From Hexactinellida sp. DTS-2022 (lineage: Eukaryota; Porifera; Hexactinellida): DNA of 64,000 bases. A program made the translations under genes and the position numbers. The stretch covers positions 9,610,001-9,674,000 of the forward strand of contig JAPNXP010000002.1 of assembly GCA_028753945.1 (NCBI GenBank), written 5' to 3'. Below, in pieces: positions 1,589 through 61,888 of the stretch. Position 1 is the first letter of the stretch. Every line of letters begins with the position of its first letter. The notes beneath the pieces were generated by a model. It had not been told where the DNA came from and ran no database searches. It was given only the letters and a program-made list of their open reading frames with translations.

Positions 1589-3685
1589 ATGGCAGCTAGA
1601 GATCGGAATATCCCCAAGACCCGACTTGATTTGGCAAAGATTTTGAAGTCACATGAATTCAATATTCAAGCAGCAATGACTGAAATTGAAGAGTCTGTTG
1701 GCACTAATAATGGTGTCTTGCAATCATTGCTATGGAGGGTTCGTAATAATGTGAGGAAAGGAAGGAAGTCAGTTGACGAATTGGATGGAGAATGGTGGAA
1801 TTCTCAAATCGATTTTAATTATGACTTAAAAAAGAGTCGTCTATCAACTCCAGCTGACTGTACTACGTCCTCTGTGCCTGATGAAAGTAGACCTATCCAT
1901 AGAAAGAGTCTCGATAGTGTTTCTTTGAAACATCTGAGATCACGCCTCTCTAAATTACTGGAGTGCATTAAATAAATTGCAGACATTGAAGACATGTCAT
2001 AAATTTCAATCGCAGCTATTGCTCTACAATTGCTATCCAATCAAGACGATAACCGTCAGTCAGCTCAGATTTCCAAAAATATTGCCTATGCTGGAGATTT
2101 TAGTGATGCGATAACGAAAGAAGTTCCGATTGATAAGTCGTTGTTTCTTCTTGATTATTTGGAAATTGGTAAAAGGAAATATACGAGCTTAAGTCAGCTT
2201 TTAATTCCAAGTGGTATTGAATTTCCTGCTTATCAGAGAATAGTAGAAGAAAGGAATGTTATCGTCCTACGACCATTTATTCAACATTATCCAGATCCAC
2301 AGGCACCAATAGGTATTTTTATCCCTTATATTCATTTAGTCAGACACAGGTTAGAAAGAATACTCTCAACTGTACAGCCTGTACTAACTGAAGAATATCG
2401 TCTTACGTTTCAATTTGCAGATGGCCTTGATGGTTCTGGCAGTCATGTTATCTACAATCAATCCATGACAAATAGAGAAACTAAGTATTATATTCTTTTT
2501 TGCTTTAAACCACTATCAGTGACAAATGTTGAGAACAATGTAATTTGGCAAACAACTTCTCCAAATTCTCCATTTTCACAAAGACCTGTGTTTCTTTGTG
2601 CTACCAAAGAGTCTGAACAAAACATTCTTAAGTTAATGTGTGATCTTATCAACCCTGATACAGATCTCATGAAAAAAGAAGGAAATGCATTACTTGGAGG
2701 ACTTGTACATATTAATATCGTTCGTTCTCTGATTGATGGAAATGGCAGTGATTCTCTCTGGCGCCGGAGGGGCAAGATGCCAAATGTGTACAGCAACTCA
2801 CAATGATCTCACAGACCGCGACTTAATATTAGAGGGATTTCCCATAAACAGGCACATATCAGATGCGATCGAATTGTTTGGAGAGCTCGAAGATATTGAA
2901 CATTTCTATCACATTCATCTAATCAACGTTATAATCTAAGTCATATACCGATTTCCACCATTGATATCAATCCTGCATCGCCCCTTCTTTCCCATACTTG
3001 TTTGTTTCGATGGTTTAATCTCCTGGTTTATCATTTAAATATCGGGAAGAAAAAGTGGGGCCCAACCAGTCTACAAATAAAAACATCCATGCAATTCGTT
3101 CGGAATCTTATCGAAGAGAAAACAGGGCTTAGAATTGATCAGCCCGATTCCGGGGGGAAACAAGTTCTACAAGAAACGTTGCTAGACAGAATCCAACTAT
3201 ATTAAATGCGTTTTATGACTTGTTGATGACACAGCGATTCACTTTTACAGATACACACAAATATATCGGCTATCTTACGAATAATTAATTCTAGCCAGAA
3301 AGTAAAAACGGATCTTCTTGGTAATATATGTAAAGATACATATATCATGATTCTGGACAATTCTCCATGGGCAAGTATCACACAGACTCTTCACAAGGTC
3401 TTAGCTCATTCTGAAGAACTCATTAGAGAGTCCAATTCAAGTTTTGGGTTGAAAAATATTTCTGAAGAAGGATCTGAATCGTGTAATAAACTAATTCGTA
3501 GGTATCGCGAGAATTAGTCAAGAAAGATCAGCTTTGAAGCAAATATATCTGACATTTTTGTTAGATTACTATCTGAAAGCGACCCTATATTAATCAGATT
3601 CCGTTCAAAGGTAGTGTGTGAAAAATGTAATACTATCGGACATACAAGTAGAGCAAAGTGCTGCAGGAAGAAGATTCAAAATTAA
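1589..3685 (+). pseudogene. Transib/RAG1-like transposase, decayed
   Basis: A broken coding region reads through most of 1589-3685 on the plus strand. The first ATG is at 1589. Around 2420 it has ADGLDGSGSH, matching the DG-containing block that holds the first catalytic aspartate in Transib and RAG1. A C-x2-C finger (ARCQMCTATH) lies near 2778. DINPASPLL and GLRIDQPDS follow. Near 3395-3490 it has HKVLAHSEELI and SEEGSESCNK, matching the RAG1/Transib C-terminal block that holds the catalytic glutamate. A small C-x2-C/H/C knuckle ends it. Damage: in-frame TAA at 1973 and 2000, frameshifts near 2740, 2925 and 3155 (a G run), and TAG near 3517. No RAG2-like partner and no CACWRTG-type termini were found nearby. 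The LLSESDP tail favours Transib over vertebrate-type RAG1. Non-functional. Confidence 0.7.
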
Positions 3686-8050: not shown

Positions 8051-8349
8051 CTTTGTTTTTGTCAAAAATTCTTTTTCAATCAGCTGATTTCTTATTGCAT
8101 TACAAACTTTACTAATTTTAAATATGTAATTACGTTATGGATGCTGATAACCAGATTTCCAGGCACATTTAGGTTGTGTTTTTAGCAAAATACTATAACC
8201 CGTTTTTATTCATACGAATAGTTTTTTCAAAACTATTAGTATAAATAAATTCATATGGAATTTACATTTCAACTTCTTACTTTGTTTACTGTAAAACTTA
8301 TTTGTTTTTGTAATTCCTTGTTTTCTTTTAGATTGACTTAGATTGTTTT

Positions 8350-10799
8350 ATGGCATCTTCCGACACCTCTTTATCTTCTCGATCAGAGGGTCTAAATATA
8401 ATGTGGGAGCACGGAGACGGCTACACCGACTACGATCCCCATTCTGATCACTCCCCAATTGAAAGCCCTATTAGTTCGCCACCTATTTCGCCTGTTTGTT
8501 CCCAACCAACCACTCCGGGAGTCACATCTCCGATGACAAGAATGGATATTTCATCCCAGTCCCCCATCTTTTTTCCAGAGTCCTCCTCTGATCCAAAAAT
8601 AGGACGTCCTAAGAAGGTCAGGAAATTCCGCGGAAACCAACACTCCTCCCAAATATCCTCCCTGGAAACCTCCGTGGAACTATCTCCAGCACCGCACAAA
8701 CGAAAACGACCTGCTTTGAAGATAACAAAACGTGGATATTGTTGCTTCTTTTCCAACCCTCCTAAAAGCAAAAGAGGATTTGTGACCTTCAGGTCCACCG
8801 AAGAGTCTGTCACATCCAAACGCGCTGCTATCCCTACAGGAATGCGGCTTCTCGATATAGGAATCCTCTCTGAAGCCATGATGAGATTGAAATGCAGCGA
8901 ATGCTCTTCCCCACTGATCCTGTACGAGACTGATAATAGCCATGGATGGCAAACTACATTCTCCATCAAGTGCAGCAGATGTCATCAGTTACTTGTACAA
9001 TTCCCTTCTTCTAAACCGATGGATTTGCCTCCTAAAACTTCGTGTATCAACTTGCACACTTCGGAACGATCCATGAATCAAGTCACAATGCGCTCAGTTT
9101 TGGCAGTCCATTGTTCAGGCTTTTCATGGAGGGACCTGCACAAATTTGCAACGGTCTTTGATATGCCAGCACCTGTTGGTCAAATGCCTGGACGCTATCT
9201 CAATAAGATCGAGACCACTGTTGGAAAAGCTTGTGATATCAGCATGGATGCAGCAGCAAAGGAACTGCACAATAATATCAATGCGGTACATTCACCTGTT
9301 CCCAAATGCGTCAATATTGCTGTAAGTTTCGATAGTTCTTGGAAGACGCGCGGTTTTTATTCGAACATTGGATTTGGTTCTGCGATTTCGGCAACTACCA
9401 AGAAGGTTCTGGATTACGCTCTCCTAAATCGCATTTGCGAAAAGTGCAATAAATGGAACGATAAACGTATCCAAGCTAACCCAGAGGCGTACCAACTGTG
9501 GTACGAGAGCCACAAATCTAACTGCCTGAAGAACTACACCGGATCAAGCCAATCTATGGAACCCGCTGCTGCCAAAATCATTTGGGAAAGATCTGTAGCT
9601 AAACATCTACTGTGTTACTCTACATTCATTGGCGATGGTGACTCGAAATCGTACCAACAGGTTGTTAGCATGAATCCGTACCCACTTGTTCCTATTCACA
9701 AAGAGGAGTGCCTTGCGCACGTGTCGAAAAGGATAAAAAAACTCTTTGCCGAATAAAGAAAAGTACGAAGGCTCATTGTTACATCCAACATAAACTACCG
9801 GAGCCAAAAGCCGAATATGTTTCTTCAAACTTTTCTACTGTGATTTTACAAAACCGAGGTAAATCAGCAGCGCATATGGCTAGAGGACTTGAGATCCTAT
9901 TCTCTCACTTGAGTGGTGAGCACGATTCTTGTCCGATCGACTCTTGGTGTAGATGGAGGAAGACTGCAACCACCTCACAACCAACTCCTGTATCGAAAAC
10001 TAACTACACCTCCCAGGATATTGCTAAAGTGAGGGAAGTTTTCAATACATTTGCCTCTGAAGAATTCTGTAGACATCTCACAATGGGTATGACCCAAAAT
10101 GCAAACGAGTCGTTGCATAATACAATCTGGAATTTTTGTCCAAAAGCGAAGTACATATCTCCACAAAGCGTTCGAATCAGTACTGGCATCGCCATCTTAT
10201 GCTTCAACGATAGCGAACTCAGTTTATTCGGTATCCTCTCAGATCTCAAACTTGATCCCTCTTATACATCCTTTAGGTTTCTCTGTAAACGAGAGAAAAC
10301 GAGGAAATTGCATCTTGCTGCTACCACCAAGAAGAATATTGACAGGAGAACTCGAAGACAACGAACAATGAGGGAACGCCGGGAGAGAGACCTGCTCAGA
10401 AAGGAAGGAGGACGCAGTTACAAGTCCAGTTCATTCGGAGCTGAAGTGGTGCCGATAACATCAAAGAAAACACCAACTAGGCCCAGAGGAAGAGGAAGGG
10501 GTTCGCGAGGTAGCTGCAGAGGAAAAGGAGTCAAACGCCGACTTATACCCAGTGATTCCCCCAATTCTTCAAGCGAAACCGACTTGTCCTCTTGTAGTGG
10601 AAGTTCTGATGGGGTCTGTGATATATGTGACGCAAGACAACCTCCCCCCCAAACACACCGCACGATCTATGGAAAGGCAACAGTCCAGTGGATTAGATGC
10701 GACAATTGTGATCGATGGTTCCATCAATGTTGCACTGAATTAGATGAAGATGTCGACGTGAGTTTGATAGATTTTAAGTGCTTTCATTGTACTTCCTAA
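8350..10799 (+). CDS. DDE transposase with C-terminal PHD finger (frameshifted)
   Basis: The product would cut and paste the surrounding TTAA element. The ATG at 8350 opens a Ser/Pro-rich basic tail. A zinc ribbon (CSEC..CSRC, residues ~180-220) follows. Then come the catalytic-core blocks: SFDSSWKTRGF (first Asp, ~330), FIGDGDSKSY (second Asp, ~425), CLAHVSKR (C-x2-H) and NANESLHN with the likely Glu (~585). An Arg/Lys-rich stretch precedes a complete PHD finger (CDIC..CDNCDRWFHQCC..CFHC) that could read chromatin. Pfam-style searches call such cores Mutator-like, yet the element duplicates TTAA. The frame changes near 9730-9740 at an A-run: the upstream frame stops at 9756, while the downstream frame is open through to 10799. 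That is a single indel, either a real mutation or a sequencing error. Otherwise the ~815-residue protein looks intact. Confidence 0.75.
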
Positions 10800-13961: not shown

Positions 13962-14331
13962 ATGGTTCCCATTCATCGCCAGAATCCTCAGATGAGGAAA
14001 AGTCTGAAACTTCACTTGTACTTGCATCTGAACTACTATCATCATGGTCTTCTTCCACATCTGTCTCTGAATCATTGTCTTCACAGTCTGCAGCTGCTTC
14101 ATATGTATCGTTTGTTATGTCTTTTCTAAATTTTGGCTTTTCAATGTTCTTGTCAATTTTAGTATCTTTGGTTATTTTGTTTGCTTTTGTCAAGTATCGA
14201 CATCGCTTTTTTTTTGGCTCCTGTACATCCCTATCCGAACATTCATCGTCTGCAACCATATCACAACTTGTACTTTCGCCTTGGGTTGCTTCTTTTGCAA
14301 TTTTGGAGGCATCTGTGGGCCAATAAACCAA
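13960..14331 (-). pseudogene. Acidic C-terminal tail of the Academ-like protein
   Basis: Open frame of ~120 residues ending exactly at the inner edge of the left terminal repeat. It has a basic patch (PKKKRCRYLTKANK), a possible nuclear signal, and a very acidic Ser/Asp/Glu tail (DVEEDHDDSSSDASTSEVSD). Which of the two overlapping frames is the original end cannot be settled here. Confidence 0.45.
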
Positions 14332-14700
14332 TGCGGGACCATTTTCTTTGCATTGTTATCCCACTTCCATCCATATTGTTCTGGATTAAGCTGTTTGATC
14401 GCAATCTCCCCGCATTGTTGCCAAATAACTGTTTGTATTTGCGCTCTTTTTAATGCTTGTAGGAGAGAATCTGGATAAAGTGGCAAGGACACAGAGGACT
14501 TCTCCTTTTGTTGTTGATACAACCGAATTCTGGTTTGAAGATAGCTTTCACTCTTATTATCACTATACATAATTGTAGATATGAATTGCTTCAAATCTTC
14601 GATATTCTGCTTGCACAGTGGCTCTTCCTTTTGCAGATTATGTGATATATAGCAATTGTGTGGAGCCTTTAATAACTTATTAAAACCCGAACTTTCCAAA
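14190..14700 (-). pseudogene. Academ-like protein, frameshifted continuation
   Basis: From FNKLLKAPHNC onward this frame continues the nuclease protein with LYQQQKEKSSVSLPLYPDS, WQQCGEIAIKQLNPEQYGW and VPHWFIGPQMPP. It overlaps another open frame (13960-14331), so a second indel near 14300-14335 is likely. Confidence 0.55.
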
Positions 14701-16333
14701 CTCTGAAAAAATATGACGTTGTGTCGCATCCGGTTAACGAATGGAATGCTGGGAGAATGGCGCATACTGTATTTCCTAAAAAATTGACTATTAAGCCAAT
14801 ATCAGCAAACTTTTCGTGGTCATATTTCATATACCATTTGTTAGTAATAGAGAAATGGCTGTATACCCACACAAGAAGAATCAAAACGTCTGTGTCCTTT
14901 GATACCACTACCACATCTTGCTCTGACAGGATTGCATGCAGTACAAGTCGTGTATCCGCCTCTTCGTGATTGCAATCGAAAAGCAAACTATTACCAAGAC
15001 TATCTATCCTGAATGTGTGCTCTTTGGATGTGACGATAAAAGGACATGTCAATTTAGATCTTCCCTCTGGTGATTGAAGAAATTCTGAAATTATCGCTAT
15101 TAGATCCTCCTTGTTGTCGCCTCGATGAAGAAATTCTTCCCAGCGCAAGCCTTGGAGCATTTTTTGGTCGACACTTTGAATGTGGACTCTTGGACCTTGC
15201 TCCCCTCTCTCTTGTCGTGTCCCTTCTTTCACGCTCGTATCTTTGTAAGTGTCGTTGATGATTCCTATGCAAGATGGTTTTGTTTCCTTTTGTGGTGTGA
15301 CAAAATGAATGAGGCTCAGTATAAATTCTTTTAATGTTGTCCTTGGTTTCATTGATCTTATAGCAGCCATTCCATCAACAAACCATGCACAATGCTGAGG
15401 AATGCTGTTAGTACACGACTGTGATGCAGATATCAAATGATTTCTGAAATGAGCTTTGTCTGACTGCCTAAGACTGCATTCAGTTGTTGCAATTGCCAGT
15501 GGAACGGTTGTGAGCGGATAATTGAATGCTTCTTCCATGTTCACATACTTTGAGACAATCAATCCAAAAGCTTGCCTATCTTCTTTTAAGACCTGGATTG
15601 TCTTTGGTGCTTTCTTCCTTTTCTCTAATCCGGTACAAACCTTGTTTCTTACAATTGGCTCAAAATAGCCCTTACTTCCATCAACAAGGCATTCTTTCAG
15701 GAAATTTTCATACTGTTTGCTTCCGAGTTTTGCAGCTCCCATCATATCATTCACTATATTCGATGGAATTTCAACTCCAGTGGCAAATGATCTTGGCTTG
15801 TCATATGAGAACGGATCTATGCCATATAGAACAAGTTGTTTCTTTAGTTTTGTCACGTGTTTACTGTGAATTTTCTTACTTCCATTGCACAGTTCCTTAT
15901 GCTTTGAGGAAGTTTTCAATGCAACCATATTGCCAAATTTTTCACGCAGTTTACAGTGCACATGAATAGTACGCACCCATGTGTTCACAGCAGAAATGTC
16001 ATTGCTAAATCCAGCACGGAATGGACCTGCAGTATCCTTTGTTAGTTTGTTAAAAAGCTCCGTAATCAAGTCTCCGTGAATTGATGTAAACCTTTCCCCG
16101 GAGACGCTTGCACCAAAACCCCGTTCTGACAAGTGTTGAAAAGCTTGTTTGTTATCTGTGGACATGTTCTGGAGAAAAACATGCTGGTAACTACAGTAAC
16201 GGGCATAATTTTGGTGATTGAAAGCAAAGGTAAGGGAGAGCATTTCACGCTCAGCCTCAATATGCCTGCTCAGATTTCCTTCTCGCACTGCAGATATCAT
16301 CGCCAGCATTGTGGATACATCTTTAAGGTACAT
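14697..16333 (-). CDS. XPG-nuclease-like domain of the Academ-like protein
   Basis: This is the rest of exon 3. Early blocks: EAEREMLSLTFAFNHQNYAR and ERFTSIHGDLITELFNKLTK. The C-terminal third holds the nuclease signature: CNHEEADTRLVLHA (compare the EAD motif of XPG/FEN1), VVVSKDTDVLILLV (compare SEDSDLL) and HSLTGCDTTSYF (compare GCDY). These acidic residues bind metal in XPG/PIN-fold nucleases. Near 14697 the frame is lost by a single indel: the expected FNKLLKAPHNC continues in another frame. Truncated at its start by the insertion 16334-17254. Confidence 0.75.
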
Positions 16334-17254
16334 CTATATTATTAAATCTCGATTGTTGTGTGTTTGTGTGTTTGTGTGTTTGTTTGTGTGTTTGTGTGTT
16401 TGTGTGTTTGTGTGTTTGTGTGTTTGTGTGTTTGTGTGTTTGTGTGTTTGTGTGTTTGTGTGTTTGTGTGTTTGTGTGTGTGTTTGTCCGGATTGTATTA
16501 AAGTGATGGGGGACTAGAAACCGCAATTAATATTGGGATATAAACTAACTTTCAAATGTTATAGTAATAGGTAAACAAATGTTATTAAGGTAAACAATTA
16601 TGCTGAACACGAATTTCGCGTTTATAAATTTCTCATATTAATATTTGTTGTTGTTGTTTACACAAAATAGGTAAACTAATTAATGAAAATTCAAAATCAA
16701 CCTAGAAGTTAGCTTCCAACGGGTATTATAGGTAAACAAGTATGCTGAACACGATTTTCGCCGTTAAAATTTTCTAATATGAATATTTGTTGTTGTTGTT
16801 TACACAAAATAGGTAAACAAATTAATGAAAATTCAGAATCAACCTAGAAGTTAGTTTTCAACGGGTATTATAGGTAAACAAGTATGCTGAACACGAATTT
16901 AGCGTTTAAATTTTCTAATATGAATATTTGTTGTTGTTGTTGTTGTTGTTTACTCAAAATAGCTAAACAATTTAATGAAAATTCAAAATCAACCTAGAAG
17001 TTAACTTTCAATAGGTATTATAAGTAAACAAGTGTGCTGAACATGAATTTCGCATTTATAAAATTCTAATATGAGTATTTGTTGTTGTTGTTGTTGTTGT
17101 TTACACAAATAGGTAAACAAATTTATGAAAATTAGATAGCTATCTACCATTTCCATGGTAGAAAATGTGAGGAGTAAGGCCGCTCAGCGGCCGTTAACTT
17201 GAGGTGCGTAGCACCGATCTGTCGCAAAGCGACCGAGACCGAAGGGCTCGTTAT
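16334..17254 (+). mobile_element. Helentron-like non-autonomous element (HINE) in the Academ gene
   Basis: Starts CTATATTATTAAATCTCG, then a (TTTGTGTG)n microsatellite, four ~145-bp tandem units (each with GCTGAACACGAATTTCG-like words and a GTTGTTGTTG run), then a run of hairpins (GGCCGCTCAGCGGCC, GGTGCGTAGCACC, GTCGCAAAGCGAC) and AAGGGCTCGTTAT. Precise removal restores the host reading frame if it inserted between two T residues, as Helentrons do. Core tandem repeats plus microsatellite plus 3' hairpins match the layout of Helentron-derived elements such as DINE-1 and the mollusc pearl elements. No Rep or helicase gene. Confidence 0.6.
16356..16488 (+). repeat. (TTTGTGTG)n microsatellite
   Basis: About fifteen units of an 8-bp TTTGTGTG/TGTTTGTG motif. 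Apparent peptides on both strands (CVCVFV.., THKHTNTQ..) are artefacts. It is part of the Helentron-like element; degenerate versions are in the copies at 5148 and 21283. Confidence 0.9.
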
Positions 17255-17843
17255 TGTGAAATGTCCTTCAGTGCCATCTTTGAAACTAAGAACATCAGCG
17301 ACCAGGGCACTGAAAGAATCATGGCATAAAACCTGATTCAAGGATTCTTTGCTTGGATTTTGTCTAAGAATTTTGATATTTTCTTTTAAGTCAGCATCAA
17401 TTTTTGTGTTCTGCTTTGTAATCTGTTCAATGCGGAACTGAACTAATGCATCAAAGCATTCTTTATGTATACGCATGCATCGGTAATAGTGACGTCCCTC
17501 AAACGCTTGCTCTGCAGAGCCCTTGGCGATTATATCTGCATCAACACACCATTGTTGCATACCTCTGCAATGGTAACGCTTGTATAATAATCGTTGCATC
17601 ACTCGTAATTGGTGAAATCCACCCATCAACAATAAAATATTCTGGTAAAGTTCTTTGTGCCTCCACAGTATGTGGCAAAGCTTGGCGTAGACTGCCTCGT
17701 CAGCATGAACAAAGACATGGTCAATCTCTAAATCCTTGATTAAATCTAGCATGGAATCCATATACTCTTTGAGCACAGGATAGTCTGGATAGTTTAACTG
17801 GTAGGTACTCTTGGATGCATTTCGTTGGCATATAGTCAGATAC
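17255..17843 (-). CDS. Academ-like transposon protein, exon 3 upstream part
   Basis: Follows an acceptor near 17843 (exact start uncertain by a base or two, because the open frame is one base off the simplest join). Conserved blocks are HVFVHADEAVYAKL, which carries an invariant Asp in this family, ILLLMGGFHQL, and FEGRHYYRCMRIHK. The reading frame runs into the Helentron-like insert at 17254; the natural continuation FKDGTEGHFT..YLKDVSTML resumes at 16333. Confidence 0.6.
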
Positions 17844-18010
17844 CTATAAAATATGCAAAAATATTTGATAAGATTCTAAAAACCTTGGGAATATTCACAC
17901 AGTGGATGCCGGTTCTAAGAACACCCTTGGGAGTAAGCAATAGATGTTATTATAATCGGCAACTACTTTACAAAAATTTAAGAGTGACTGCAAGTGACTA
18001 TTATTATTAC

Positions 18011-18546
18011 CTGCTTGTTGAAGGCAGTCCACGAGCCAAGTGGGTCAAAATCATCAGAAATGTCTGCTACGCATCCTGCTACTGACCAAGCTATGTCTTT
18101 CCGGAGATACCGTTCTAATTCTCCTGTGCAATCCGTTTCAACGTGATTCTTAAATAAAGGTGGTTTTACTTTTTTTCCAATCATGTAAGGGGCAGTTTCA
18201 TTTGATAGATCTTCAGCTGCACTTGAAAAAGCTAGTGGGAATTCAATTTGCTCACCAAAAGTTGGCAATATCTCTTCTGTCTTGGATGGTATTTGGAATA
18301 ATTTTACATTTGTATCGTGTGTTGTTCCCGAACCTGTTAATGTATTTTGACGGCCATCATTATTATCAAGAGTGCTGTGACATACTACACCTTTCCGCAT
18401 ATTTGGATACAAACATCCTCCTGCAATTACCATTCTGGCCCAAGCCTGATTCTGAAGGCGGATAGAAGTGTACGATGCAGAATGATTGCATTTGTGTAAG
18501 TAATCAATAGTTTCCTTGCTTCCAGTCATCCTGTGAACAACCAAAC
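18011..18546 (-). CDS. Academ-like transposon protein, exon 2
   Basis: Begins after the acceptor TTTTCCTTTTCAG and keeps the phase of exon 1 (940 + 536 nt, a whole number of codons). It encodes LVVHRMTGSKETIDYLHKC, then SIRLQNQAW and a long acidic linker. It ends ...SWTAFNKQ at the donor AG|GTAATA. No catalytic motif is recognised here; it is the linker between the zinc-binding part and the central domain. Confidence 0.65.
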
Positions 18547-18662
18547 CTGAAAAGGAAAATATTTGCATTAACAATTTATCGATTTCGGCTCACTCATCTC
18601 TTTTCTAAATTAAATATATGAGAAAAGTAATGGAAAACAACAGCACAAAAAACAAGACTAAC

Positions 18663-19602
18663 CTAGAATGGCTTGTTTTGGAGAAGGTTGCTTTGTGATC
18701 AACGATTGCCAGTCACTAGCAAGAGACCAAATTTTGGTTGCTGCCAATTTTGTGCTTGTAACACAATAGCCATATTCATTTTTCTTCGCATTATCCTTAA
18801 GTGTATGATATATAGCGTTATAAATCTCAGGAAGAGGTCCCTTGTCCAGTTCTTGCATAAATTCGTCAATAGACAGTGGCAGTCTTTTGTCACTTTCTTG
18901 TCTGTGCTGCATTTTTCTCCGAATCATTCGACCGAATGCTCTCACTAAATCTTCATCCCTCAACCCACATCCGTGAAGAGCAGCAATTGTATAATTCCAA
19001 GGGTTTGTGTCAGATGCATATACAAGAAGATACTTTGAGACGGCCTTGAAAGAGATGTCTGATTTAAATTCTTTTTCAATGCGCCTCCTTAGGTTCCTCG
19101 TGTCCTTAATAACTGGCTCTTCAAATCCTGCCTCTTCGCTAAAGCTCATTATATCATTTAACAGTTCATGAAGGAGAAAAGCACATTTGTCTATTATGAT
19201 TTTTCGTTTGATGTCAACTAGGAAAGACTGGATGACCAGCTCTACTTCTCCGTCTTTGGATTTGCTTTCAACAGCAACGTAGGGATGTGCATAGGAAGAA
19301 TAACAATTTTTGTGGTAATATATATCAGCTGAGAAAACATCGCAAGCATCAACTTTCAAAATTGCGTCTAACCTACAAGAGGCCTGGTAATAGGGTTCGG
19401 CCTTTTCAAGTAGGTAGCATTCTTTCTGTTCCAAAATTCTTGCTTCTGCCCTACCCTCTGAACATCTGCCTAGCCCACCTTCGTTATATTTCAAGCCATC
19501 AGTGTTCTTTGTCTCATAGCAGATGAAACATATTTTCTTGTCATAGCTCACTTTCGAACGAAGAGTTTTCTTCACTTTCAATGTCCTTGGAGACTTGCTC
19601 AT
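18663..19602 (-). CDS. Academ-like transposon protein, exon 1 (zinc-binding N-terminus)
   Basis: Starts at ATG 19602 (MSKSPRTLKV). A zinc-binding pattern follows: CFICYETKN (C-x2-C, residue ~25), a later cysteine (CSEGRAEA), and YHKNCYSSY (H-x3-C, ~100). The remainder is helical and charged, with LLVYASDTNPWNY and HGCGLRDEDLVRAFGRMIRR, typical of this large family of transposon proteins in aquatic animals. It ends at AG|GTTAGT at 18663/18662, a good splice donor; the frame joins to exon 2 across ~116 bp. No damage in this exon. Confidence 0.7.
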
Positions 19603-19861
19603 ATCGTAGAGAGTAATTAGTAATTTTAGTTCCAAATTTTAATCTGCATGAATTGTGTACAGCACCATTGGCTTCAGTAAACCCTGAAATCCTCTCTAAA
19701 ACGGTAGTAAAAATGTGTGCCTTATCTTGATTATCTATGTTTAGTTCACTCCAATCCTTGGCATCTTTAAATTTTGAGCAGGTGATAGGATTACATACAA
19801 GTTATAGCAGTAAAGAAGGATTAAATTGCATTAATAATAGAATAAAATAGAAATTTTTTAG

Positions 19862-52807: not shown

Positions 52808-55800
52808 TTATTGCGTCTTGACATCTCCCTGATGAAACTTATTTATTCTCACAGTTGATCTTTCGATAAACTCCTGCATCAAGTCTTCGATATTTAGGAC
52901 CGTTCGAACCAAGTACCTGTTATAGTTTAGAAATGCAAGGCTGCTCATACGTTCTTGACCTTGAGTTGACCTCAAGTAAGTGTGCAACCTTCGTAACATG
53001 CTGAAAGATCTCTCAGCTTCGCATGTCGTTATAGGGAGGATAATATACAAAACTAGAGCAGTGTGTAACCCAGGGAACATGGCCTTCATTGCTGGTTAGG
53101 ACCTGAGTTTCTCCTGTAGAGATTGGTAGGACGTTTCGAGACCTTCAAGGCTGCAACGCTGAAACCAAGCCTGCCTTTCCCACCTTAGTTGCGCAAACTC
53201 TGGAAGGTCACCTTCATAGAATCCCGCCAGCTCATTTAAGTCCTCGTCTGCCATTTTCTTATCCTCTAAGGAGCATCTCAAGAGCTCAGCCACATGAAGA
53301 TCTTGTTTAGAGTACCGGCTGAATAGAGCCGAAGCTGCTGATCGGAATACCTACATAGAGCCACTAATTAATTGTGTGTTAGTAAATTATAAATGAAATG
53401 AAAGTTTGAAACCCGATTATATTGTAAACATCCTACTAACCTGCTTGTATATTTCTATATAACGTTGTTGGATCTGAACCTCCACATCTTGTGTGTCTGT
53501 AACCCGTGGGATCGCCCTTTCCACTGTTCGCTCAGCTCTTGTCAGTCGCAGAGGCCTAGGTTGGTCAATTCTAAGATTTACTGCTGCAGCCTTTACTTCT
53601 TTGAAAAAAGCCTCGGCGTTGACATCACAATAAGCTTGACTATTTAGAACATCCATGAGGCTATTAACCCAATTTCTGACATCACCAACTGTTACCTCTC
53701 TACCCTGACACATAGTATGGATAGGGTTTGTCAGGGACAACATCTTCTTGAATACCATAATTCCAAAATACGTCTCGAATGATTCAAGAGAACGCAGAAA
53801 TGAGCGGGATTCGGCACGCTTTTCAGCTTTGAGGCTTCTATCATCTTGTAAAAATTCGAGCAGCTCAAGAACCGTAGTGTAGTGCGCTAACAGACTTTCC
53901 ACACTAGGGAGTCTTATTACCCACCTCGTCGGACAAAGCGGCTTCAACTCCCGCTTGTTAAGGTTGGGGTTATCCAAAGCTGCTGCAGCTACCAACTGTT
54001 TGAACACTCCATATCTTTTAGGGGACGTTTTAATGAAGTTTATTACTGCATGCAGCTTTTCTAGTGCGTTTTCCACCTCTCACACTGATTGCATACTCTC
54101 TTGCACCACTAAATTGAGATTATGGCCAAAACAATATATCCACAAGGCTTTAGCGTTCTCAGCTCGCACCTTGGTTTGGAGACCACCGTGAACTCCAGAC
54201 ATATTAGCTGCCCCGTCATATCCCTGCCCCCTCATCGAATCGAACGGTAAATTCAGAACAAGGAAGGCATCTTTAAGGATAATCATTAAAGTATCTGCGT
54301 CTGTGGTCTCTGTTGTCCTAAGATCACTGTCAACGTGGCGGATGCATACACTGACCTGCTCACGCCCCCTGATATCCTGAGTCTCATCCATTATAATTGA
54401 ATAGAAGAAGCGGCGCTGCTTATTGGCTTCCCCAGCAGTAGAATCATGCTTGATGAGAGTAATAATGTGTTTGGCCAGTCTGTCTCTCATTAATTGTATA
54501 ATTTCGTTCTGAATTTCTGGGCTCATAAATTTCAACCGCGAATCTGCAGTAAAATGTTTTTACAACCTCGTTGAACCTCGAGATAAGAAAGGCAAGGTTC
54601 CAGATATTTGAGGTCTATTTTTCATCCCTGTGCCCACGAAGAGCAAGCCCTTGTGTAGCACAGGTCATGACACAATCGAATATTGCTCTGAGAGCAGTCC
54701 TGTTAAGGTTCAGGTATACTCTACAAATTTCGAATATTTAGATAAAATCCAAATCATTGTCTATTTCTCTTTTATAGCATTTGGGATTGTATTGATACCA
54801 ATGAGTACTCTCAAGAGATTTCTAAGAAAGATTCCTATTATTTTTCCAGTTTGACACACTTTGGTCACCTCAATTTAGGAATAATTGCTGTAAATTTTTT
54901 TTTCAAAAGCCGCTATCTCAAAACTAACATTTTCAGAATTGCGGAAGAAGTCATTTTGTCAATTTTGGTCGTAGAATCAAAAACTCAACGGTTTCGGAGA
55001 GATCTCGTAAAGATACAATTTTTCAGTGCTGCGATTTACCCTAATATGAACAGTTCATCTGTTTTTTTGATTTTGGATAAGGAAAATCTTCATTTCAAAA
55101 TAGACATCACATAAAAGTATTTGAAATTCCAGAAAAATGTAGATATTCACAATTCCTGTACTCAAAAGTTATATTACATCCAGCTAAACACATTTTATCA
55201 ATAATATTCTTGGTATTGTTTATCTTTTCGGATTGATCTGTCCGAAAAAATGGTAAAATTTCAAAAAAAGTTTTTTCCTCTATTAGTTTATTTGCCAATA
55301 TTAATGTATTTTTGGCATCCTGAGGATGAAGCAAATCCGCTGTAAAAAATTAATTCATTCGGGTAAATACTTATGGTAGAAGCACTCTAGAGGATACCTG
55401 AACCTTAAGTTCAATGTCTTCACGTTTGATTCTATCAAATCTATCATCGATTACTGGTTTATTTAGCTCCATCAGATATACTGACCAAGCGTTGTGGTGT
55501 TCAGATTGGTTTCCTCCCATATGCCTATCAAGTGAATTTTTCCTTTCTTGATGTCTTTCCATCCTTCACCATCGCATGTCTTGAGCCACTTAGAGGTGCC
55601 TTGCGTTTTGGCCTTCTCAACGGGTCGAATGGGGTTATTAGTGATAGCCCACAAACAGACGGCGCAATGACACGTATCCATGTCTTCGTTGAGTTTGAGC
55701 CACTTGTAGTACACGAACCACTGCTTCTGCATGTATCTCCTATAATTTCTATCGCTCTCAAAAGGCATTTGTTCAGGAAGTTTCTTGATATCCTGAAGGA

Positions 55801-56070
55801 AAGGAAGCACACAATTCTTAATGTTTGGATCGTTGAATAAAGTATACGACATACTGGAATTCTCACAAGCTGAAAGTGAGAAGGGGGCGAGGCATTCTAG
55901 CTGTTGGGAAATTTCTTGGTAACCTTTTGAATGCTGTTCAACTGATGATAGACTGTGTGCTAAGGATCCCGATGGTCTAGAGTATAATTCTGAACCTCCA
56001 GTGACCTCTCCGTCAGCATTATCATCTTCTGTAGCGGTTAATCGCGTTTTCTTGACTGTGAAGAAAGAGT
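52808..56070 (-). pseudogene. hAT transposase (ZMYM1/TTF-finger type), dead
   Basis: From the right: a variable N-terminus from ~56066 (after TTTCTTCACAG), a TTF-type zinc-finger region (WFVYYKWLKL, CHCAVCLWA, GTSKWLKTC, 55740-55560), then after the MITE RGHRDEK, EIQNEIIQLM, SIIMDETQDI (Asp of the core), GQGYDGAANMSG (second Asp), CFGHNLNLVV (C-x2-H), LCPTRWVIR, and near 52990 ITTCEAERSFSMLRRL (the catalytic Glu/dimerisation block). A standard intron lies at 53440-53353 (AG|GTTAGT..ATGTAG). In-frame stops: TAG after RGHRDEK, TGA near 54077, TAA at 53096. With the MITE insertion it cannot make a product. Confidence 0.85.
54707..55404 (+). mobile_element. TTAA MITE family 1 inside hAT transposase
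   Basis: TTAA at 54703-54706 and 55405-55408. Length plus TTAA is 702, a multiple of 3, so the hAT frame is the same on both sides, although the MITE itself contains stops. Confidence 0.9.
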
Positions 56071-56763
56071 TTATTAAGACTTGCTGTTCGATCGGAAGAG
56101 AGACGTTGCGCTTTGACGTAGCTAGTTATGGAAGTGTAAATTATATAATTATATATATACAGTATTGTATTGGAAATAAAACTTGTGATATGATAGGAGT
56201 ACAAAATGTAACGAAGCGATATAAACGTACAATCGCTTCAGCAGGAATGCCTCTAAGGAAAAATTTAAGCGAGTTATTCCTTGTATAATAAGACAAATCA
56301 TAAGTAAGATTTATGGTAATTCATAACAAAAGGACAAGGGATACACCATGCGAAGAACGAATAAAGTGGGGTGTATGAGCTATAAGGCATCCCCATTCAC
56401 AGTGAAGGGAAATATATTCAAAAGATTACAAGGGATTTACGCCGTATTTAATCTAATATCTATATTTACTGAGAAAGATTTATGCACCTGGCAATTAAGG
56501 GTCATGTTAAAAAGCAAATATATTTCAATGTTTACAATAAATTTCAAAGGAAACACCAGCTACGGAGACAAAATCTGGGGGGGGCGAGACTTATGCTGCC
56601 CCCCCCCCGATATTTTTCCCGGGGGGGCACGCCCCCCCCGCTCCCCCCGCAACGACGCCTATGGTCATGGGTCTATGGTTCAATGGGTCATGGGTCACAA
56701 ATTGCGATGGGTCAAATGGGTCATGGGTCACCAATGTTGACCCATGGCCACTCTGTTCCCAGC

Positions 56764-57937: not shown

Positions 57938-57945
57938 ACGTAGAT

Positions 57946-58340
57946 TAGGCCGGATCAAGAAAAGTACAATTGGTCGGATCAACTTCTACCTAAGGGAAAA
58001 GTTGCCTTTACTCCTTTCTAGGATTATAAGAAATTTAGATCCGAAAAATATATTGATTTGACCCTTGCGGTTTAATAGTTTTGCTGTGTCACTTTCACAT
58101 AATTGACCTTAAATCCTCCGAATTTTCAAAATCCTTTGACTTAGCCCCTTTAAATGTATTAATTAGTAATAGTAAGTCGCCAATTTGCTGTCGAATAGTA
58201 TATAAAGCTAATCTCCATCTATTAGGATACTAAAGTTATGAAGAAATTCTTTGTATTTTCGATCATACCCTAATAATATCACCCCCCCCCCTCCTTCCCT
58301 CCTTTTTTCCCAAAATTTGAAAATGCATAACACTAGCTTT
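57946..58340. repeat. Left 395-bp TIR of the unclassified transposon
   Basis: Reverse complement of 61486-61880. Includes a ~10-bp C run (TATCACCCCCCCCCC region, 58279-58291) and CACTAGCTTT at the inner edge. The gene's 3' end (58392) is ~50 bp inside. Confidence 0.9.
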
Positions 58341-58391
58341 TTGATCAGTTGTTGAATAAAGCAAGGTTCAATTATATTATATGCAGTTAAT

Positions 58392-61275
58392 TTAACATGT
58401 ATAATCTTTTTTTGACTCAAAAGCAGGCATTTGTTCTCTCGAGGTTAGTGTTGTAAGAATTAATCCATGTCTCGCCTCTTCCCCTGTTACTGATGATGAA
58501 GCTTTTGTAACCAGTTGAATAGTTCTTTCAACAGCTTGTGTATGGCATGGATATCCTGGTATTTCTATAGGAGTATACACACTATTAAGTAGTACTTCTT
58601 TTGAGAGGTGTTTTGTCAAAGGCGGTTCTGTGATAAGAGATGTTTCCCAATCAATCATATCCACGTATGTTTCAGCAGTGAACCTTATTGAAGGAAGCTT
58701 AAATGGGCGAATTTCATTCTGTCCAAATGATGAATTGTTGGTGCGGATATCTAAAATAGTGTTCACTGCCTTTTGTCTAATTTGCACATCATTGTCTGCA
58801 AGCATCGATAACAGAAGGTTTTCTGGATGACAAAAATATGCATTTCTCTGTAGCACATCACAAACTACTTCTTGATCGTAGTCCGGTAACTCTCGCAGTA
58901 AAGATATTGCATAGAATAGGTTTCTAGGTCCATCTGTGCATATAGAATTACTCTTAATTCTAAACCAAACTGGTGCATAGTAATTGACGATAAAATAGAC
59001 AATTCGGGATAATTCAGGTGTAGGATGGATCGTTGAAATGCAAGATCGAAGTAACCTATTGGCTAAAGTTGTCCATCTAGCATGATGTATAGGGCCAGGT
59101 TGCATCGATGCAAGTTCAGATGAGCAGTTACCAGACTGAACTGCATGACATATATTATATAGATATTTCTGATCTGTACTTAAATTGTTGAGAATCTCGC
59201 AATTGATGTACTGACTTTTACCGCATATAGGATTATAAACCGCGATTGGCTTGCTAGCAAAATCAGAATTAAGTTCTTTTCCAATTACTCCTTTAAAACT
59301 ATTGGGTCCACTGGTTTTCCCATCTATTCTCTCAAAGAGATGCCTCAATGGAAGTTCATTACTGTGTAATTGGCAAATAAACCAGTGGAGTGGTTTTGAG
59401 AACTCTAGTTCAAGGAGTCTAATACATCCATTATGGATTCCAGTGTTAACTCGAGCTCCATCAGCTCCAACAGCCTTTAAGGTTCAGGTATACTCTGCAA
59501 AATTCGAAAATTTATATAAAATCCAAATCATTGTCTATCTCTCTTTTATTGCATTTTTGGATTGTATTGATACCAATAAGTACTCTCAAGAGATTTCTAA
59601 GAAGAATTCCTATTATTTTTCCAGTTTAACACACTTTGGTCACCTCAATCTAGGAATAATTGATGTAAATTTTTTTTTTCAAAACCCGCTATCGCAAAAC
59701 TAACATTTTCAGATTTGTGTAGATAAGAAACTTTTTCAGTTTTGCACGTAGAATCGAAATCTCAACGGTTTCGGATAGATCTCGTCTAGATCCATCCTGT
59801 ATCGTTTGCGATTTATTAAATTAGAAATATTTGCAGAGCTTTGCGGATTTTGGATAGGAAAATTTCGATTAAAAAGTTGACATCAAGTAATAATCAAGAA
59901 AATTAAAAATATATTAAATTTGAACAATCCCAGACGATGCAGGATAAACAAGATATAGATAAACGCATTTAAACAGTATTTACTATTGTAAGGTTTATTA
60001 TTACTAAAAAATCTCTTACACAAATGGGTAAAATTTGAAAACCTAAAATTTCACAGTTACTTGTCATTGAAATATTATTGCATTTTTGCAAATTGAAGGA
60101 TGATTCAAATCCGCTGTGAAAATTTCAAGTAAATGAGGTAAATATTTTTGGTAGAAGTGCTCTAGAGTATACCTGAACCTTAAATCTGAATTCCGCTCCC
60201 TGCAAAGATCAACCAATTCCCTTGCTATATCTTTTGATTTACCAGAACTAGGTGTTACATGGGCAATATACTGATTTCCTGGTTCAGATAAGACGGTGTA
60301 ATGTTCTTCATTCACAGTATCCTGGTGCAGATTTCCATCCTCTCTCTCTACCATCACTCGAGTTTGATCTTTACGGCCATCAAAATAAATCGCAGTGATA
60401 TCCGTGATATTCTCGTGAGCTTCGTTAGCTAGAACCCTTCTCACTGAAAATCTCGATCTACGTAGTTTGTTTCTATCAATAATTATACTATTTTCATCTG
60501 GTGTGATAATACCGTAATCCTGGAGTACTGCGTTGGCTATAGCTGCGCCTGCGCGATCGCTTATCTGATATCTATCACACATTATGGCTAAATTTCGAAA
60601 TTGATTTTGATTACGTGTATGCTTGTGACTATTCAATGTATTTGGGTCGTAAGATTCAAACTCTTCAAGGTCACATTCTAAAAATTCCTGCGAAGGTTGA
60701 TCAGGTTGTTGTCTCTTCAGTTCGCTTTATTCTCTTTCATATTGTGCCTCTTTTCTCTTTTGAGCAGCAATATTTTTTGAGGTGGTCGAGCGATCCAAGC
60801 TGGATAAAAATAATTTTCTAGCGTTTCGCTGATCAAGGAGAAATGGCCACTCGCGGCTTGGTATCTTTTTATCGAAAGAGCAAAAACATTTGCCTTCTTC
60901 AATCGGGCATTTACAACTCGAGACGTCGAACAGAACATTGAATTCGGAAATTATAGGTTGGACACGGTCAGGTTGTTGCTTGTTTTGGATACTTTTTCCG
61001 TGGTATTTAGCTCTCTCAATAATACCAGAATTGATGTATTGTTTTATTTTGATCTCAGATATTGTTGGTATAGAAGACTTTTCATAGATGCGCACTATTA
61101 TTTGTGTAAGTTCTTTCGCAATATCGTCTCTAGTGAATTTCGAATTTTCATTTCTAAGCATTCTGTAATGATTATACAGATCTAGTTTTGTTGGGAGTTG
61201 ATTTTCTGGTATAGGTCCAGGGTAACCGAACACAGGATGAAATATTTTACCACGCGTGTATTCTGCCATATTCAA
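58392..61275 (-). pseudogene. DDE-type transposase of unassigned family, split
   Basis: One frame runs from 61275 to 58392 when the MITE 59481-60179 is set aside: ~725 residues. N-terminal part: MAEYTRGKIFHPVFGYPG, helical, with a Cys-rich patch CKCPIEEGKCFC (~130-145). An in-frame TAA at 60727-60729 interrupts it. Then DRYQISDRAGAAIANAVLQD, IIDRNKLRRSR, ITAIYFDGRKDQTRV (likely first Asp), EEHYTVLSEPGNQYIAHV. Past the MITE: VGADGARVNTGIHNGC (likely second Asp), FICQLHSNELPLRHLF (a C-x2-H..E motif as in RNase H-fold transposases), HHARWTTLANRLLR, and YPCHTQAVERTIQLVTKAS (candidate Glu). Very similar uncharacterised proteins are, to my knowledge, widespread in insects and aquatic invertebrates. 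The first in-frame start is alternative (MNMAEYTRG at 61275). Dead copy. Confidence 0.7.
59481..60179 (+). mobile_element. TTAA MITE family 1 inside the unclassified transposase
   Basis: TTAA at 59477-59480 and 60180-60183; ends GGTTCAGGTATACTCTG and GAGTATACCTGAACC. More diverged than the 47.6/54.7-kb copies. It separates DLCRERNSDLR from KAVGADGAR. Confidence 0.9.
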
Positions 61276-61485
61276 AGATCAATAAATTATAGGAATAAAA
61301 ATACTCTAAAGGGTTGATCTGATCAGAGTATTTATGAAGATACAATAATTAACCATAAATTCCATATTAGATAAATGGTAACTAAGTTAAATGCATGGGT
61401 TAAGGAATGTGTATGAAATATCTTTAAACCAATTTAATGATGAATTTAGATTTAGACACAGAAATCAACTATGTTTGACAATTAT

Positions 61486-61880
61486 AAAGCTAGTGTTATG
61501 CATTTTCAAATTTTGGGAAAAAAGGAGGGAAGGAGGGGGGGGGGTGATATTATTAGGGTATGATCGAAAATACAAAGAATCTCTGCATAACTTTAGTATC
61601 CTAATAGATGGAGATTAGCTTTATATACTATTCGACAGCAAATTGGCGACTTACTATTACTAATTAATACATTTAAAGGGGCTAAGTCAAAGGATTTTGA
61701 AAATTCGGAGGATTTAAGGTCAATTATGTGAAAGTGACACAGCAAAACTATTAAACCGCAAGGGTCAAATCAATATATTTTTCGGATCTAAATTTCTTAT
61801 AATCCTAGAAAGGAGTAAAGGCAACTTTTCCCTTAGGTAGAAGTTGATCCGACCAATTGTACTTTTCTTGATCCGGCCTA
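61486..61880. repeat. Right 395-bp TIR of the unclassified transposon
   Basis: Mirror of 57946-58340, with a G run at about 61537-61546. The gene start (61275 or below) is ~210 bp inside, so a promoter is expected here. Confidence 0.9.
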
Positions 61881-61888
61881 ACGTAGAT

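Follow-up and report, generated by a model that had tools for sequence, protein, structure and literature searches.

Hermes, the hAT transposon of the house fly, and hATm, a lineage within hAT, are the described systems closest to the element analyzed in this study. One report gives Hermes terminal inverted repeats (TIRs) of 17 bp and a preference for the target nTnnnnAn (PMC10368747). Another describes hATm as having TAGGGTG/CACCCTA termini and target-site duplications (TSDs) of 8 or 9 bp; Repbase holds more than 74 entries of it, the TIRs of two members measure 417 and 575 bp, and PF05699 is reported in hATm-6, known from Rhodnius prolixus and Cotesia vestalis (PMC6004678). This study investigated a transposon at positions 57946-61880 of a 64,000-nucleotide stretch of DNA, hereafter the window, from the hexactinellid sponge Hexactinellida sp. 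DTS-2022 (contig JAPNXP010000002.1, positions 9,610,001 to 9,674,000). An earlier note on this DNA had assigned its transposase to no recognised superfamily and had set it apart from hAT. Our results do not support that assignment: the Hermes-like fold predicted for a sister family, the order of the motifs, a TSD like that of hATm, and hATm-like termini in relatives indicate that the element is very likely a cut-and-paste DNA transposon of the hAT type, most likely of the hATm lineage, which was compared by its published description. Because its transposase most likely folds and works like that of Hermes, the element is probably related to an established group of jumping genes rather than representing a new one.

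The element and its termini are as follows.

57946-61880, gene on the minus strand: whole transposon, 3935 bp in the window copy and 3229-3241 bp in 11 other near-complete copies
57938-57945, unstranded: left 8-bp TSD, ACGTAGAT
61881-61888, unstranded: right 8-bp TSD, ACGTAGAT, an exact match to the left one
57946-58340, plus strand: left TIR, 395 bp, with the tip TAGGCCGG
61486-61880, minus strand: right TIR, 395 bp

The 8-bp TSD and near-identical TIRs of about 395 bp claimed earlier were thus confirmed, with two mismatches between the TIRs. We then searched the window's own genome (112,398,167 bases in 18 contigs) by using the left TIR as the query, which yielded 35 matches. Among 18 matching regions retrieved, 11 contained both ends; together with the window copy, they form 12 near-complete copies with a pairwise likeness of 98.9-99.9% over ungapped columns. 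An exact 8-bp TSD flanks 10 of the 12 (L034 and L040 are without one), and the full open frame of 724 amino acids is kept in three other copies (L031, L039, and L041). With 11 other copies sharing its ends and differing little in length, and with exact TSDs in 10 of the 12, the ends of the element are established far beyond chance, and the complete element with exact termini proposed in the earlier note stands. The window copy belongs to a young family, and this jumping gene was recently active; it may well be active at present. Two regions, L043 (C11:6210812) and L044 (C11:8998006), hold TIR fragments; both break off near TIR base 167-169, where different AT-rich sequence adjoins, and these are possibly non-autonomous derivatives.

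To identify empty sites, we fused the two flanks of each of the 12 copies and looked for matches in the window and the retrieved regions. The joined flanks matched across the junction for four copies (the window copy, L035, L039, and L041). The match of L041 within the window is a convincing empty paralogous site and documents the insertion.

2027-2346, plus strand: empty paralogous site of copy L041, with 11 mismatches in 320 positions across the junction and one TSD copy, ATATACGA, at 2179-2186

The joined flanks of the window copy were identical to L050:4014-4280 at 186 of 268 positions (69%) across the junction, a supportive but weaker and older empty site. A 267-amino-acid open frame at 2003-2806 of the window is part of a repeated sequence; a second copy of it, on the same contig, carries the L041 insertion.

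A search with the transposase as the query revealed 64 genome matches, ranging from near-identical copies down to relatives of 22-60% identity. Two relatives, L049 (41% identity, TIR of 363 bp, TSD ATGCCCAC) and L051 (38% identity, TIR of 408 bp, decayed TSD), belong with the window copy to family A. A second family, B, is larger (72 genome matches with P0005 as the query). The two families are homologous over their whole length (hhalign probability 99.8% over 656 columns; reversed control 0.1%). In family B, 8-bp TSDs were found in L050, L061, L063, and L059, and TIRs of approximately 50-140 bp at 70-80% in L050, L061, L062, and L063; TIRs were looked for in L059 and L060, and none were found. 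Eight relatives were examined for TAGGGTG tips, which are present at both ends in five (L049, L050, L051, L061, and L063) and at one end only in two (L059 and L062); the end of L060 gave no clear reading. Target preference was determined from 15 exactly readable TSDs, 10 of the window family and five of relatives. T occupies position 2 in 9 of the 15 and A position 7 in 13; together these amount to 22 of 30 (binomial p = 7e-6 at a background of 0.33). An 8-bp TSD with the T2/A7 preference expected of hAT is therefore present.

The transposase motifs are listed below, with residue numbering of the intact relatives P0001-P0003 and conservation counted over the letter-bearing rows of alignment A5 (28 rows).

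60379-60381, minus strand: D297 (IYFDGRK), proposed as the first catalytic Asp and conserved in 15 of 17 rows
59460-59462, minus strand: D369 (GADGARVN), proposed as the second catalytic Asp and conserved in 17 of 19 rows
59364-59375, minus strand: CxxH motif CQLH (C398, H401), C in 19 of 20 and H in 19 of 19 rows
59073-59075, minus strand: Trp of the RW motif, W498 (HARWTT), RW in 17 of 17 rows
58527-58529, minus strand: proposed catalytic Glu, E680 (TQAVERTIQ), E in 16 of 16 rows

All four motifs named in the earlier note (YFDGRKD, GADGARVN, CQLH, and AVERT) are present in the window copy. Its statement that a hAT-type RW motif is lacking was contradicted by HARWTT. The order D, D, CxxH, RW, ER is common to the window family, its relatives, and the hATs, and the CxxH and RW motifs lie between the second Asp and the Glu. 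At the matching places, Hermes has TIDLW, CSSH, TRWNS, and ASERTFS; its catalytic residues are D180, D248, and E572, and its Trp is W319. The two Asp residues are 65-66 positions apart in family B, 71-79 in family A, and 63-66 in seven of eight hATs. An NTG motif after the second Asp is family-specific. The ratios of nonsynonymous to synonymous substitution rates (dN/dS) of 0.19 for L061-L063 and 0.27 for L041-L049, the latter at a saturated dS of 2.45, suggest purifying selection; seven near-identical comparisons gave ratios of 0.37-1.65, two of them above 1, and are little informative.

We compared profiles of the transposases with eight hATs of the same genome that match PF05699. The profile of families A and B combined scored 35.4 and the A5 profile scored 32.1, and none of 150 column shuffles reached either score. 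The aligned stretch was the region of the second Asp and the CxxH motif. Control scores were 17.1 for three P-like proteins (reached by 67 of 150 shuffles), 16.2 for a Mutator-like protein, 18.1 for a DUF6589 protein, and 26.2 for hAT against P. With single hATs, the best score was 33.8 (L076), and the other seven yielded 14.9-23.2.

Structure prediction, which the earlier note had proposed for an RNase H fold, succeeded for family B and gave a poor model for family A. The predicted core of family B folds like Hermes (PDB 6dwz, 4d1q, 2bw3, 8edg), with an RNase H-like DDE core and a helical insertion, and in these models Hermes matched clearly above all other folds. The modelled core fold thus appears to be common to Hermes and this lineage; the window family also has the D-D-CxxH-RW-ER order and the 8-bp TSD with T2/A7 in common with it. 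The two differ in that identity over the structural alignment is 8-10%, that Hermes has a BED finger and a PF05699 region, neither of which was detected in the window family by Pfam, and that the Hermes TIRs are 17 bp long (PMC10368747) compared with 395 bp in the window copy.

Similarities to hATm are the 8-bp TSD and, at both ends in five of the eight relatives examined, the TAGGGTG...CACCCTA tips. Long TIRs are shared as well; 417 and 575 bp are published for hATm (PMC6004678), and family A has 363 (L049), 395 (window copy), and 408 bp (L051). Differences are the window tip TAGGCCGG and the short or diverged TIRs of family B.

Several results weigh against a hAT assignment. The Pfam scan of P0001-P0006 and the 28 A5 rows recognised no family, including PF05699, which is reported in hATm-6 (PMC6004678), and no BED match was obtained in full-length P0001-P0006 at E values up to 10. 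The C-terminal profile test against hAT was negative (score 11.6, reached by 40 of 150 shuffles). The hhalign probability to hAT was 8.9% for A and B combined, 3.1% for A alone, and 0.2% for B alone (score 19.6), and the profile-profile search suggested earlier thus gave no significant match. The RW-to-E spacing of 183-194 is shorter than the 234-281 of the eight hATs. At its tips, the window family carries TAGGCCGG and not TAGGGTG. The model of family A itself has a predicted local distance difference test (pLDDT) score of 49, leaving family B as the only good model, and the global Foldseek template-modelling (TM) score to Hermes was 0.41, with a root-mean-square deviation of 13. The earlier note had named a significant profile match to an established superfamily with the same TSD and termini as an observation that would speak against its view; this has come about in part, by fold, termini, and TSD, and the sequence profiles provide no significant match. 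The relatives have hATm-like traits, yet the PF05699 of hATm-6 was not seen in them; the element is therefore best described as working like hAT and most likely of the hATm type.

A rival explanation is a separate superfamily sister to hAT, with the RNase H core, insertion, and 8-bp staggered cut of hAT but a lineage of its own that should be named separately and is not hATm. The lack of any Pfam match, the low hAT profile probability, a C-terminus without detectable likeness to PF05699, the NTG motif, and the shorter RW-to-E region all favor it. Against it, the published signature of hATm combines TAGGGTG tips with long TIRs and an 8-bp TSD (PMC6004678), and the predicted structural match to Hermes clearly tops all other folds. 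We consider this explanation improbable. A deep lineage with the Hermes fold beside hAT, distinct from published hATm and split into the two ancient families A and B, is similarly rather unlikely. If true, family A would be marked by TIRs of approximately 400 bp and a CxC..CxC cluster and family B by short TIRs; the fold and 8-bp chemistry would be those of hAT, the BED finger and PF05699 signature would have been lost or never present, and a separate superfamily name and a dedicated Pfam model would be warranted. A P-element-like transposon is a very remote prospect: P elements and THAP9 have in common with this element an 8-bp TSD and an RNase H core that is interrupted by an insertion ahead of the Glu, but their structural score in the models was lower than that of Hermes, no sequence-profile similarity was observed, and no THAP domain was found in the Pfam scans. 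A KDZ (Zisupton-type) transposon, for which an 8-bp TSD is likewise reported (PMC12730594), is the least probable, being disfavored by the profile evidence: PF18758 matched in no scanned member, and its seven genome matches lie on none of the copies studied.

Under the preferred hAT-type reading, the single gene would encode a transposase of approximately 724 amino acids whose DDE core (D297, D369, and E680) is RNase H-like and carries an insertion, composed entirely of helices, that separates the fifth strand from the Glu-bearing helix; the protein also has the CxxH and RW motifs. By analogy with Hermes, the enzyme would bind the long inverted repeats and excise the element, probably leaving hairpins on the flanking DNA as hATs do. 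The excised element would then be joined at 8-bp staggered cuts in T2/A7-preferring sites, which would generate the 8-bp duplications.

Uncharacterised proteins of this type are common in invertebrates. The RNase H-type DDE transposase suggested earlier is supported and was recognised by no Pfam family, and this orphan family is now tied to exact ends, an 8-bp TSD, and a predicted Hermes-like fold; such genes can therefore be labelled as hAT-type transposases rather than unknown proteins. hAT-type enzymes can thus escape the PF05699 and BED profiles, the usual means of finding hATs.

In the window copy, the transposase gene is interrupted.

60730-61269, minus strand: 5' part of the gene, from the ATG at 61267-61269, with the N-terminal CxC..CxC cysteine cluster found in family A only
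60727-60729, minus strand: TAA stop codon that interrupts the reading frame of the gene
59477-60183, unstranded: nested non-coding element, 699 bp long (59481-60179), that splits the gene; its inverted ends, GGTTCAGGTATACTCT, measure 16 bp
58392-59476, minus strand: 3' part of the gene, lying downstream of the nested element, beginning near residue 367 and ending with the stop codon at 58392-58394

The CxC..CxC cluster is distinct from a BED finger. The single long gene described earlier is not intact here; its two translations (58392-59480 and 60180-61275) are indeed parts of one gene, and the space between them is the nested element. TTAA duplications flank this element at 59477-59480 and 60180-60183. 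It has 45 genome matches, 40 of which, the window's included, are nearly full-length at 88-100% identity, and it is missing from L031 in the alignment. It is a young TTAA-type non-autonomous family. An intron was rejected as an explanation for the gap at 59477-60183 because this sequence belongs to a family of repeats flanked by TTAA duplications and is absent from the other copies. With the stop codon and the nested element, the window copy is unable to make the transposase and is therefore dead as a gene. Its ends look complete, and mobilisation in trans would be possible in principle.

The window has a guanine-cytosine content of 31-39% in 4-kb blocks. A Mutator-like transposase lies at 8332-9756 (PF20700, E = 5e-46), and an overlapping frame at 9669-10799 may continue it. 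A cluster of long minus-strand frames occupies 14190-19638, one of which matches DUF6589 (PF20231, E = 9e-10). The remnant of another hAT-like gene lies at 53417-56125; a piece of it matches DUF4371 (PF14291) at E = 5.5e-6, under the curated cut-off. The genome is very rich in DNA transposons, with at least 150 matches to PF05699 (hAT) and at least 150 to PF21787 (P-like).
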